Shown: one piece after another, positions 39,932-44,229 of the stretch
Layout of the letters: every line of letters starts with the position of its first letter
Numbering within the stretch: position 1 is the first letter of the stretch
From: Candidatus Gastranaerophilales bacterium
GTDB lineage: Bacteria; Cyanobacteriota; Vampirovibrionia; Gastranaerophilales; Gastranaerophilaceae
Reading direction: 5' to 3'
Length of the DNA: 64,000 nucleotides
Assembly: GCA_944326585.1 (NCBI GenBank)
Contig: CALVEN010000001.1
Coordinates: 248,001 to 312,000 of the forward strand
Position numbers and translations under genes: made by a program
The notes under the pieces: generated by a model
The model's database searches: none
Seen by the model: only the letters and a program-made list of their open reading frames with translations
What the model was told of the DNA's origin: nothing

Positions 39932-40300
39932 ATGGAAAAATTGTCTAGAAGTCAGGAAGATTATTTAGAAGAAATCTACGTTCAGGTCTTAAAGAATGGT
40001 TTTGCAAAGGTTACTGATATATCTGAAGCACTTAAGGTTAAAAAAGCTTCTGTAACTTCTGCTCTAATACAGCTTTCTTCCAAAGGCTTAATTAATTACT
40101 CTCCATATTCTTCTGTTACTCTCACGTCTGAAGGAGACAAAATCGCGAAAAAAATTTTGAAAAAACATAAAGTTTTGTGCGAATTCTTTGGTGAAATATT
40201 AAAACTTGATAATGCAGCGGAAATTGCTTGTGCGGTTGAGCACCTTATTTCTGATAAAAATTTAGATAAAATTAATAAGTTTGTCACTAATTTTAAATAA
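39932..40300 (+). CDS. DtxR/IdeR-type iron-dependent regulator (short form)
   Basis: A 122-residue protein: winged helix (SRSQEDYLEEIY to VTLTSEGDKIA) and the helical dimerisation/metal domain (about 65-120); no SH3-like third domain, as in MntR. Metal ligands align: the ED..E pair of the first helix, KKH (about 77) and CAVEH, where MntR has E but DtxR/IdeR has C in the C..EH motif. The Cys suggests iron rather than manganese. I chose the ATG at 39932. Two DtxR-like palindromes lie between it and the next gene, an obvious target. Confidence 0.85.
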   Translation: MEKLSRSQEDYLEEIYVQVLKNGFAKVTDISEALKVKKASVTSALIQLSSKGLINYSPYSSVTLTSEGDKIAKKILKKHKVLCEFFGEILKLDNAAEIACAVEHLISDKNLDKINKFVTNFK

Positions 40301-40401: not shown

Positions 40402-41409
40402 ATGATGAAAATACAGACACTTGCCAAATATGTGGATCAGCCGCTTGTAATAAATAAACTTAATAACCGGATACCAAAACTTCTAATCGGATCAGGTTCT
40501 GCAATAGCTGTTTATGATGCTTATAAACACAGAAACAGCAAACATAAGAAAAATGAACACAGGTTATTAAAAAACGGCATTATAGCTGCATCAATAATAG
40601 GGTCTACTCTGGCTGCAGTTAAAAAATTTAAACTTATAGAAATTGAACCTGCCTCAAAAATTATTCAAGAGCAAACAAGAGCAGTTGACGAATATATTCA
40701 AAAAACAAATTTAACCGATAATATTTTACTGTCTATACTTAATAAGTCTAAGAGAAACCACCTTTCCTTGGACGAGGTTCCGGTTCTGTTTGAAAAGTTG
40801 AAAGATGATTCAAACAGAGCCGTTTTATTTAAGACATTATTTTCGGAAAATAAAAATTTAACTTCCTCAGAAATTTTTTCGGAGATAAAAAGGCTTTCTA
40901 CTTTGGGGGCAGTACCTGTTGCAAGCGGTCTTGCAGGGGGTATTATCGCAGATACCGTGACAGGCACATCTTCTTTAAAGAAAAATGCAAATAAGATAAA
41001 AGAAGGATTTTATCAGTATTTTGCAAATATCTTTTTGTGTAATGTCGGAGCGGGAGCTGCACTATATGGAGCCGAAAAATTACATCAAAAAGGTGTCATA
41101 AAATCCTTAACACCTGCGAAAAAGCTTGTGACAATACTTGCAGGGATTACTGCAACCGGTATTGTCGGCGGAAGTTACATTGCAAATTTTTTGAGTAAAA
41201 AAATAATTAACCCGTTATTCGGTCAGAAAAAGGAAAAGGGTATATATTCCGAAAGAAAGCCTGAGCCTTTGGATATTGCGCTTCATGCTGATGATATAGC
41301 AACGGCAGGTGTGTTGTCCGGTGTAAAATGGATTGAACCGATGCTTCCTGTAATGTATTTTATATCAGGTTTCAGAGCCGGAACCGGGTATCGTAATGTT
41401 AACAATTAA
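40402..41409 (+). CDS. Putative metal-regulated membrane protein, unknown family
   Basis: A 335-residue protein with several hydrophobic segments, among them LLIGSGSAIAVYDAY (about 27), NGIIAASIIGSTLAAV (about 58), GAVPVASGLAGGIIADTV (about 172), FLCNVGAGAALYGAE (about 210) and LAGITATGIVGGSYIANFL (about 250), and Lys-rich loops. There is no family I recognise. GAGGG precedes the ATG-ATG start. Its promoter carries two DtxR-like operators, so it is likely iron-repressed, and a cobalamin riboswitch operon follows. Transport or storage linked to metal is possible but unproven. Confidence 0.65.
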   Translation: MMKIQTLAKYVDQPLVINKLNNRIPKLLIGSGSAIAVYDAYKHRNSKHKKNEHRLLKNGIIAASIIGSTLAAVKKFKLIEIEPASKIIQEQTRAVDEYIQKTNLTDNILLSILNKSKRNHLSLDEVPVLFEKLKDDSNRAVLFKTLFSENKNLTSSEIFSEIKRLSTLGAVPVASGLAGGIIADTVTGTSSLKKNANKIKEGFYQYFANIFLCNVGAGAALYGAEKLHQKGVIKSLTPAKKLVTILAGITATGIVGGSYIANFLSKKIINPLFGQKKEKGIYSERKPEPLDIALHADDIATAGVLSGVKWIEPMLPVMYFISGFRAGTGYRNVNN

Positions 41410-41419
41410 ACACAAATGT

Positions 41420-41448
41420 TTGACATGAATTTCAGGTTATTTTAAGAT
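41420..41448 (+). promoter_or_regulatory. Promoter of the cobalamin riboswitch operon
   Basis: TTGACA (41420-41425), 17 bases, TAAGAT (41443-41448). The expected transcript start near 41455 coincides with the 5' end of the riboswitch. Confidence 0.65.
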
Positions 41449-41454
41449 TTTTTT

Positions 41455-41585
41455 AAGAGGAAATGGTGTGAACATCTCCAGCTGTAGCCGCAACCGTAAA
41501 AGCCGGAACACTCATAAATACTGTCCACGTGCTGTTGGAAGTATAAGTTGTCCTCTTATTCGTGTTCAAAAAAGAGGATTTTTTA
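41455..41585 (+). ncRNA. Cobalamin riboswitch with overlapping hairpin expression platform
   Basis: The core matches the cobalamin aptamer: GGAAATGGTGTGAACATC, then CCAGCTGTAGCCGCAACCGT, and later GTGCTGTTGGAAGT (compare CGGTGGGAAGTC in E. coli btuB). TCCTCTT (41551-41557) can pair with AAGAGGA at the 5' end (41455-41461) or with AAGAGGA at 41572-41578, which is followed by six T and includes the Shine-Dalgarno of the next gene. The two pairings exclude each other. The canonical B12-box hairpin was not found, so it may be a compact (class-II-like) type. Confidence 0.8.
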
Positions 41586-42272
41586 ATGCACTTGTCAACG
41601 GTACATACGCAAAACGCCAGAGTCGGAACTTGTCCTCATGGTTTACCTATGGGCGCGTGTCCGATTTGTAACGGTATGTCAGGCGGCGGTGCCGCTAAAA
41701 AAGCTGATTTTTCAGCAAAACCCGGCGAAATGAGCTGGAATGAATGTGCGGCAATAGGTGCATTCTTAAAAGCTCAAAAAGCGGCGCAGCAAGCCAGAGA
41801 AGCTGATTTTCAAGCACATTTGCAAGCGCTTCAAAAATTTCAAAACACAATGGCAAATGCTGCTCAAAGGGCAGCTCAATTCGCTCAAATGGTTCAAAAT
41901 TCCATGCCGCCGATTATTGCCAAGCCTCTTGGTTTTGTTATGAATAATATTGTTGCTAATGGACTTAATATGATTAGAAATCTGCCGCAGACAATATCAA
42001 ATTTTGTACAAAATTTTTCTCAAAAGCTTGCTGATATTGCGGACAAATTAACTGCCGTATACGGTGAATTAAAAGCTGCCGTGCAAAAGAAAGTATCAGA
42101 AACCTTTAATGAAATTAAAAAGAAGATAAAATCAATTTTCAAAATTTTTGAGCCTTTAGACACGGACGATGAAGACAAAAAGGTTGAAGAGGCAAAACGA
42201 ACTTTTGAATTAAAAACCTTTATACATAAACTTTACAAAAAATTAAAAGACGGTGATAAAGATGAACGTTAA
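41586..42272 (+). CDS. Riboswitch-controlled protein with CPHGxPxGACPIC metal motif
   Basis: A 228-residue protein starting MHLSTVHTQNARVGTCPHGL; residues 15-27 form CPHGLPMGACPIC, a probable zinc or other metal site. The rest is helical, Ala/Gln/Lys-rich, without signal peptide (AAQQAREADFQAHLQALQKF), ending in a basic/acidic coiled coil. The ATG lies seven bases after AGAGGA, which is sequestered in the riboswitch hairpin. No family is recognised. It is first of three co-directional genes (overlap 11 bp with the next), so it is cobalamin-controlled together with them. Confidence 0.75.
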   Translation: MHLSTVHTQNARVGTCPHGLPMGACPICNGMSGGGAAKKADFSAKPGEMSWNECAAIGAFLKAQKAAQQAREADFQAHLQALQKFQNTMANAAQRAAQFAQMVQNSMPPIIAKPLGFVMNNIVANGLNMIRNLPQTISNFVQNFSQKLADIADKLTAVYGELKAAVQKKVSETFNEIKKKIKSIFKIFEPLDTDDEDKKVEEAKRTFELKTFIHKLYKKLKDGDKDER

Positions 42273-43755
42273 TCAATTCAGAGATGGTGAAACGCTGAGA
42301 CAAAACAGGAATTTAACACCTATTCAGCAAAAAACAAATGCATATACAAAAGAAGGTGTCATTGTAAACAGTTTTTATAAAGACCCTTCAAAACAAACGG
42401 ATTTTCAAGATACATGTGATACTTTGATAATATCCGATGACACCAGCCTGCCCAAAAAACTTGCCGAGATTGAAACTCCCGTGAATAAAAGTCTTTTGCC
42501 GATTAGTGCAATAGTCCTCGGAGTTATGGGTTCAATTGCTTTGTTGACTTCATTTGTAAGGCGCAGTGCAAAGATTAATTTGAATATACCGTCTTTTAAA
42601 AGACTTCCGGCAACGACGCGAAATGTTGCCCTGAACGAAGAAACACATCAGGCGCTTTATCAGATGATACAAGCACCTAATCAAAAGACTATTCTTGCGG
42701 GTACAGGGGTTTTGACGCTGACGGCAATGGCATTTATGGGCAAAACGTTCTTTGACGGGTTTAAGGATGTCTGGGTAAAACGCCGCGAAGCGGATATTCA
42801 AAAAAATCTTCAGGAAAATTTGATTGAAGTTGAAACGCAGTCTTTTGCCGGCAAAATGCAAATTGTTCGCAGTATGCTTGCAAAACACGCAATTGAATTT
42901 AAAAAATATTTGTCTGATGACAGCGACCAAATTTTGCCGAATTTCGGACGGAAAAAGTTCAATCCTTTGACATTTACCGCTAAAAAGTCTGATGAAAATA
43001 AGTCGAATAAAAATTTTGCAAGCTATATACTTCTCGGACTGGGTACATTTGCCTCAATTATAGGGCTGGGTTTTATTTCAATGAAGAATTTGAGTAAAAG
43101 CAAACTGCATCTTGATAAGTATATAAAAGATACTAAAGCTGTAATCAACGATATTATAGAGAAATCAGCTCCGGTTACTAAAGAACATGACAGAACAAAT
43201 TTAACTCATTTGTTCAAAGCAATAGGTGCTGATGCGGAAGAAATTAAGTCTTACACAAAGAATTTAAATTGGGATAAGGAAGATATTGCCAAATTCGAAA
43301 AAGAGATTGCGGAAGAAATACAGACTTCATCTACAAAGGTTAACGCGGCAATGGGTGGTGACGGAACCCCGAAACCATCTTTTTATTCTCACGTAAATGA
43401 TTACAGGGCGTTTTTCTATAATTGGCTTCTGGATACTTCAAATCCGCAGTTTAAGCAGTTGTTTTTCGGGATTACCGGTTTGACAGCACTGGGTTACGGC
43501 GGTAAACTGGTAGGTGATGCCGTAAAAGATGTTCAGGTGAAAAAGATTAATGCAGAAACCGAGCTTCAGCTTCAAAAACGCCTTGTTTCAACTGAACTTC
43601 GAAATTTTAAATCCAAAAAAGATGCGGCAATTAAGCCTCTGGTCGATGAATTTTATCGTCAGGTCGATGCGGGAAAATCAAAAGATGAGTTAAAAACAAT
43701 GGCGGAAAATATTCTGTTTGAAATTAAAAACGGTGCTCCGTTTGTATATTCATAA
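42262..43755 (+). CDS. Multi-pass membrane protein of unknown family in the cobalamin operon
   Basis: About 497 residues from ATG 42262 (a GTG at 42253 is less likely). Four hydrophobic helices are visible: LLPISAIVLGVMGSIALL, ILAGTGVLTLTAMAFMG, SYILLGLGTFASIIGLGFIS and LFFGITGLTALGYGGKLVGD, separated by Lys/Glu-rich loops. The C-terminal about 90 residues are helical and soluble. It shares the Gly-rich helix style of the 40402 protein but no clear homology. It could be a transporter-related or membrane-scaffold protein; this is inferred only from topology. Confidence 0.7.
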   Translation: MNVNQFRDGETLRQNRNLTPIQQKTNAYTKEGVIVNSFYKDPSKQTDFQDTCDTLIISDDTSLPKKLAEIETPVNKSLLPISAIVLGVMGSIALLTSFVRRSAKINLNIPSFKRLPATTRNVALNEETHQALYQMIQAPNQKTILAGTGVLTLTAMAFMGKTFFDGFKDVWVKRREADIQKNLQENLIEVETQSFAGKMQIVRSMLAKHAIEFKKYLSDDSDQILPNFGRKKFNPLTFTAKKSDENKSNKNFASYILLGLGTFASIIGLGFISMKNLSKSKLHLDKYIKDTKAVINDIIEKSAPVTKEHDRTNLTHLFKAIGADAEEIKSYTKNLNWDKEDIAKFEKEIAEEIQTSSTKVNAAMGGDGTPKPSFYSHVNDYRAFFYNWLLDTSNPQFKQLFFGITGLTALGYGGKLVGDAVKDVQVKKINAETELQLQKRLVSTELRNFKSKKDAAIKPLVDEFYRQVDAGKSKDELKTMAENILFEIKNGAPFVYS

Positions 43756-43767
43756 AAAGGAGGATAA

Positions 43768-44229
43768 ATGTATATTCAACCGGTTAACAATATTCAACAG
43801 AGATATATGCCCACACAAATGCCTGATATCAGGCGAAATTATATTACGGTTGATAATAATAAAGTCGATACTTTCGTAAAACAGGGTGAAAATGCTTTGC
43901 CTTATATTTCGGATGTCCTTCAGCATTCAAATAACGAAACACAGATTACGGAAACCTTATATATATTGGACAGAATGATTGACGGAGGCGTTAAAAATAT
44001 TGATAAGATGTATCCTGTTTTGTCAAGGTTTAATAATGCAAAATCCCCGAATATCCAGACATTTTTGGCAGGAATCTACAGAAAAATTCAGGTGCCGGAT
44101 GCTTTTGGTCCTTTAGTTAAAATGCTTGTGCAAAATTCCTTAAACCCTAATCCGACGCCGTTTTTTGATCCGAATGAGGAAATCGGCGGCGCAATACTCA
44201 GCTATATTTCTCCGGAATTCAGAAAATAG
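43768..44229 (+). CDS. Small helical (HEAT-like) protein, last gene of the cobalamin operon
   Basis: A 153-residue protein, MYIQPVNNIQQRYMPTQMPD at the start, then repeated helices (GENALPYISDVLQHSNNETQ, AKSPNIQTFLAGIYRKIQVP) resembling HEAT/armadillo units. AAAGGAGG precedes the ATG 12 bp after the upstream stop. No signal peptide. The function is unknown; co-transcription with the riboswitch genes is likely. Confidence 0.7.
   Translation: MYIQPVNNIQQRYMPTQMPDIRRNYITVDNNKVDTFVKQGENALPYISDVLQHSNNETQITETLYILDRMIDGGVKNIDKMYPVLSRFNNAKSPNIQTFLAGIYRKIQVPDAFGPLVKMLVQNSLNPNPTPFFDPNEEIGGAILSYISPEFRK

Follow-up and report, generated by a model that had tools for sequence, protein, structure and literature searches.

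Three co-directional open reading frames, here called P1, P2 and P3, lie directly 3' of an AdoCbl-II cobalamin riboswitch (Rfam RF01689) in the window, i.e., the whole 64-kb stretch of DNA that was analysed. Close relatives among the named genomes place the genome in the Gastranaerophilales (Vampirovibrionia/Melainabacteria), a diderm lineage (PMC4040986). The riboswitch was found by cmscan as a match to the full model (1-81), with 44.1 bits (gathering score 36.5) and an E value of 2.6e-7. It is the sole Rfam match within the window. As a full-length match above the gathering score it is an ordinary member of its family; it differs in its targets, which are orphan protein families. A sequence-only reading of this DNA had proposed a cobalamin-controlled three-gene operon at 41586-44229. 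Such an operon is indeed present, and the riboswitch falls just outside the range given. RF00174 was considered as a better model but gave no match at E ≤ 0.01 in the window's genome; in relatives it mostly re-detected AdoCbl-II sites weakly. The features are compiled in the table.

Features of the riboswitch-P1-P2-P3 locus, with positions counted in the window
Feature	Position	Strand	Basis
Promoter-like TTGACA-17-TAAGAT	41420..41448	+	consensus scan
AdoCbl-II riboswitch aptamer (RF01689)	41441..41518	+	cmscan, 44.1 bits
Aptamer AAGAGGA, copy of the Shine-Dalgarno region	41455..41461	+	RNA fold
Anti-Shine-Dalgarno arm GTCCTCTT	41550..41557	+	stem search
Shine-Dalgarno-containing arm AAGAGGAT, then T run; sequestering/terminator-like hairpin	41572..41584	+	8-bp stem
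P1, 228 aa orphan protein	41586..42272	+	ORF, homologue alignment
CPHGLPMGACPIC motif of P1 (C16, H18, C25, C28)	41631..41669	+	26-sequence alignment
P2, 497 aa orphan membrane protein, 11-nt overlap with P1	42262..43755	+	ORF
P2 repeat 1 (aa 124-200), hydrophobic segment into long charged helix	42631..42861	+	hhalign vs repeat 2
P2 repeat 2 (aa 377-454)	43390..43623	+	hhalign vs repeat 1
P3, 153 aa orphan alpha-solenoid (HEAT/ARM-like, predicted), 12 nt after P2	43768..44229	+	ORF, model

A TTATTTTAxGAT-type sequence is recurrent among many homologous leaders. As the 5' edge of the Rfam aptamer model, formed by the 5' strand of its outer helix, is shared with the putative -10, the P1-leader transcript probably lacks this helix. 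The overlap suggests that AdoCbl-II switches of this type begin at the aptamer core.

The expression platform, as far as it can be predicted in silico, consists of a Shine-Dalgarno (SD) hairpin and an alternative pairing between aptamer and anti-SD. The anti-SD arm is able to pair with AAGAGGAT (41572-41579), which has the SD inside; the T run and then the start codon of P1 (ATG, 41586) come next. In the MFE fold calculated without ligand, the anti-SD arm pairs instead, via GUCCUCUU, with AAGAGGA inside the aptamer. According to a stem search, 69 of 98 P1 leaders can form a stem whose 3' arm holds the SD, as can none of 97 regions upstream of P2 and four of 92 upstream of P3. An upstream copy of the SD arm, at least 6 nt long, is present in 46 of the 79 homologous leaders with a hairpin. 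The MFE fold of the P1 leader as such is no more stable than that of shuffled sequences (z -0.24).

The P1-specific SD hairpin and the ligand-free pairing of aptamer and anti-SD point to a leader that acts as an OFF switch, with B12 as repressor: at low cobalamin, AAGAGGA of the aptamer would pair with the anti-SD, the ribosome binding site of P1 would be free and the operon would be expressed; upon binding of cobalamin, the aptamer would fold, the anti-SD would pair with the SD and expression would stop. RBS-hairpin expression platforms of the same kind have been described for btuB and env8HyCbl, and repression is how B12 usually controls uptake genes and B12-independent isozymes. Since a corrinoid riboswitch that activates is also on record, we infer the direction of control here and do not take it as demonstrated (all PMC10653944).

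The N-terminus of P1 contains the motif CPHGLPMGACPIC, as had been noticed from the sequence. In an alignment of 26 sequences, the family motif reads CPHGxPxGACPIC, complemented by Cys54 and followed by variable long amphipathic/coiled helices. Invariant residues are G23, C25, P26, I27, C28, E48, C54 and E161, while C16 and H18 are kept in 90% or more of the sequences. The conserved C16, H18, C25, C28 and C54 might make up a zinc knuckle, but no family match was obtained. C16, H18, C25 and C28 are considered a putative ligand set for a metal or a corrinoid. P1 has neither a hydrophobic segment nor a signal peptide.

For P2, four membrane helices had been claimed. We see three to four hydrophobic segments, near residues 81-99, 142-160, 256-274 and 400-418, of which the second and the fourth are only moderately hydrophobic. 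P2 is internally duplicated, its two repeats being aligned by hhalign with a probability of 97% and an E value of 9.5e-11. A paralogue of P2 was not found in the window's genome, and the structural model (pLDDT 67) yielded no Foldseek match at E ≤ 0.001. P3 is predicted to be all-helical (AlphaFold2, pLDDT 89) and is strongly conserved in the motifs YRKxxVPDAFGPL and FDPxEExGGAIL. The proposed HEAT-like repeats may be reflected in the solenoid model and in its best Foldseek matches, which are armadillo/HEAT repeat and ARM/alphaRep structures with TM values up to about 0.5; these matches are non-significant (E ≥ 0.06), and a Pfam HEAT match was not obtained.

Searches of Pfam, NCBIfam and PDB with the three proteins and their homologues disclosed no convincing relative, which agrees with the previous statement that none of them is a known B12 protein. 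Scattered profile matches of P1-P3 were non-reproducible or of coiled-coil type and were discarded. No ATPase, porin, signal peptide or fold match indicative of transport was seen in P1-P3, and within open-access limits no description of the operon was found in the literature. The earlier interpretation is partly supported; no protein feature of P1-P3 reveals transport or corrinoid binding.

A helical, membrane-associated and adaptor-like make-up devoid of transport or enzyme domains would also suit a surface, cell-contact or stress structure that is induced by B12 starvation and never touches a corrinoid. There is a precedent of a kind: ppe2 of Mycobacterium tuberculosis, a gene of uncertain function, is controlled by a B12 riboswitch (PMC11260477). 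The linkage to the riboswitch, which is complete and deep, and the loss of the system together with B12 use fit a direct role better, and we rate such an indirect one as unlikely. Both observations are detailed below.

The family survey comprised 117 Gastranaerophilales genomes, 100 of which contain a P1 homologue. In 99 of the 100, an AdoCbl-II riboswitch precedes P1 at a distance of 57-244 nt (median 94). The hundredth (G102) has one too; a permissive scan detected it at 30.8 bits, with an insertion. This aptamer (L060 1280-1408, G102:C30) has an extra arm of about 50 nt and had been missed by the fast genome-wide search. Two P1-P2-P3 loci from sister families were also examined. Each has a divergent AdoCbl-II element upstream with a sub-threshold score: 28.7 bits (E 3e-4) in L233 and 20.9 bits (E 0.06) in L232, the latter being weak alone and convincing mainly by position. 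With these divergent copies, detected by permissive scans, an apparent absence of the riboswitch from G102 and the sister families could be dismissed. The linkage of the homologues to the riboswitch, the point at which the sequence-only reading was to be put to the test, is thus complete in the family and reaches into two sister families, the very opposite of a refutation.

About 98 loci share the order riboswitch-P1-P2-P3, with variable flanking genes. Among the 386 genomes of the phylum, 153 gave a P3 match, and the matches listed are all from the order Gastranaerophilales. In genus g25, P3 is located elsewhere and without a detected riboswitch; in L234 (6002-6409, G024:C6) it stands apart from P1-P2, beside a prepilin-peptidase-like gene. 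A fourth gene, P4 (44339-45364), was rejected as an operon member because of a gap of 110 nt and its absence beside P3 in distant genera. Upstream, a membrane protein (40402-41409) and a DtxR-like regulator (39932-40300) are encoded. As only close relatives keep them beside P1, they are probably not part of the P1-P3 system. That the riboswitch match or the neighbourhood is accidental, or that the reading frames are not genes, has a negligible probability in view of the 44.1 bits, the 100/100 linkage within the family and the conservation of proteins and synteny.

Usual targets of B12 riboswitches are uptake systems, B12-independent isozymes and B12 enzymes. The second of these classes had been overlooked when the targets were narrowed down to transport or B12-dependent metabolism, and it is represented in the window's genome: a second strong AdoCbl-II riboswitch (G000:C3:102097-102177, minus strand) directly precedes nrdD/nrdG (L065 5554-8060). 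These genes encode a B12-independent ribonucleotide reductase, while NrdJ needs adenosylcobalamin. NrdJ itself is encoded at G000:C5:8160-9917 and forms with nrdD/nrdG a B12-switched ribonucleotide reductase pair. In the family, nrdD/nrdG are also the target of most other riboswitches that were examined.

P1-P3 could in analogy be a B12-independent substitute for a B12-dependent process, as nrdD/nrdG is for NrdJ. Riboswitch class and the presumed B12-repressed logic are indeed shared with nrdDG of the same genome. NrdD/NrdG, however, is an enzyme, and in P1-P3 no catalytic domain or enzyme fold was detected. A substitute would further be expected to persist where B12 use has been lost, yet P1 is absent there, and it would leave the entry of B12 into cells without BtuBCDF, CbiQ and CobS unaccounted for. 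We therefore regard a substitute as quite improbable.

Other AdoCbl-II elements of the family have more familiar targets. Four precede an operon of TonB receptor and FecCD, one in a genome of the window's genus (L200, G038:C34) and three in genus g19 (L201, L205, L209). An ABC ATPase and a BtuF-type protein are also encoded there where the contig reaches far enough; Pfam confirmation of the domains is limited to L200. The four genomes of genus g19 all encode FecCD and TonB receptor and are without P1; three of these loci were read. A B12-binding radical SAM protein follows an AdoCbl-II element in L215 (900-2279, G032:C1). In L204 (919-1800, G012:C7) the element precedes two small reading frames without a Pfam match, possibly a further target of a new kind.

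Known importers were searched for as FecCD, TonB receptor and CbiQ/ECF-T; the profiles for import, CobS and MetH domains found control genomes positive as expected. FecCD (PF01032) occurs in 12 of the 117 genomes and the TonB receptor (PF00593) in 13, nearly the same ones; the window's genome has neither. CbiQ/ECF-T (PF02361) and CobS (PF02654), the one cob/cbi gene that the search covered, were not found in any of the 117, nor was the MetH activation domain, the window's genome included. NrdJ, in contrast, is above cut-off in 81 of the 117 genomes, again including that of the window. Neither FecCD nor TonB receptor accompanies it in 76 genomes, and 71 of these 76 have P1. With most genomes lacking standard import genes and CobS yet keeping NrdJ, a new system for the acquisition or handling of cobalamin appears to be the best reading. 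Here the earlier proposal of a novel cobalamin- or cobalt-handling system gains support for cobalamin from the phyletic pattern, while nothing points to cobalt as such.

P1 and NrdJ co-occur with a Fisher p of 3e-4 in all genomes and of 2e-4 in those of high quality, values that are descriptive, because related genomes are not independent. High-quality genomes without P1 number nine, six of which are also devoid of riboswitch, NrdJ and FecCD. Of the other three, G018 (genus g19) has TonB receptor and FecCD immediately 3' of its riboswitch, G062 has a riboswitch at nrdD only, and G080 is treated below. That P1 and BtuCD strictly exclude each other was considered and found no statistical support (P1 versus FecCD, p = 0.07 in all genomes, 0.44 in those of high quality).

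That P1 tracks NrdJ across genomes would also be expected if P1-P3 handled the corrinoid after its entry, at the inner membrane, by trafficking, removal of the upper ligand, salvage or delivery to enzymes, with import taking a separate route. P1, with a conserved Cys/His set and neither signal peptide nor hydrophobic segment, would suit such a task, and coordination of cobalt by cysteine as well as decyanation are known from BtuM (PMC8123684). P1, however, is not bound to NrdJ alone, as 24 P1-positive genomes have no NrdJ above cut-off, and the importer would be left unaccounted for. Mere handling of this kind we consider rather unlikely.

The explanation that we prefer, with a confidence just short of even, is that riboswitch, P1, P2 and P3 constitute a system by which Gastranaerophilales acquire corrinoid (vitamin B12). 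More tentatively, with the balance tilted somewhat against it, the whole order may import B12 via a membrane system of three proteins that has not been described before and has no relation to BtuB/BtuCDF, ECF-CbrT and BtuM. With BtuB-BtuCDF the operon shares riboswitch control, which in the few family members mentioned (L200, L201, L205, L209) is even exerted by the same AdoCbl-II switch, but P1-P3 comprise no TonB receptor, FecCD permease, ABC ATPase or binding protein. ECF-CbrT likewise stands for B12 uptake without BtuCDF; its T component (CbiQ), however, is what all 117 genomes lack. BtuM offers a possible analogy, in that P1-P3 include a membrane protein and conserved cysteines and the operon has no ATPase. 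Yet the P2 profile has no convincing match to a PDB chain, P2 with its 497 residues has three to four hydrophobic segments, and it is P1, rather than the membrane protein, that carries the Cys/His set.

In an acquisition system, the internally duplicated P2 would be the membrane part, C16, H18, C25, C28 and C54 of P1 might bind the cobalt of the corrinoid or a structural metal, and P3 could serve as a HEAT-like adaptor. As the operon has no ATPase, the energy might come from an ATPase encoded elsewhere, or uptake might proceed by facilitated diffusion with trapping, an idea borrowed from BtuM. Of course, there are points to the contrary. In a diderm lineage the outer-membrane step is left unaccounted for, as is the energy source. 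P1-P3 have no transport signature. Eight genomes have FecCD and P1 together, the said 24 are P1-positive without NrdJ, and one of high quality (G080) keeps NrdJ without P1, riboswitch or known importer. Finally, P3 of genus g25 does without a riboswitch at its separate location.

The supply of B12 shapes gut communities, and uptake genes serve to predict B12 dependence. Such predictions would miss most of the family's genomes, which use NrdJ without having standard uptake genes and CobS. The strictly riboswitch-linked orphan operon, so far seen only in Gastranaerophilales, is a testable candidate for the missing B12 route. Even if it should turn out not to be an importer, P1-P3 would represent a conserved B12-controlled function of uncharacterised type.
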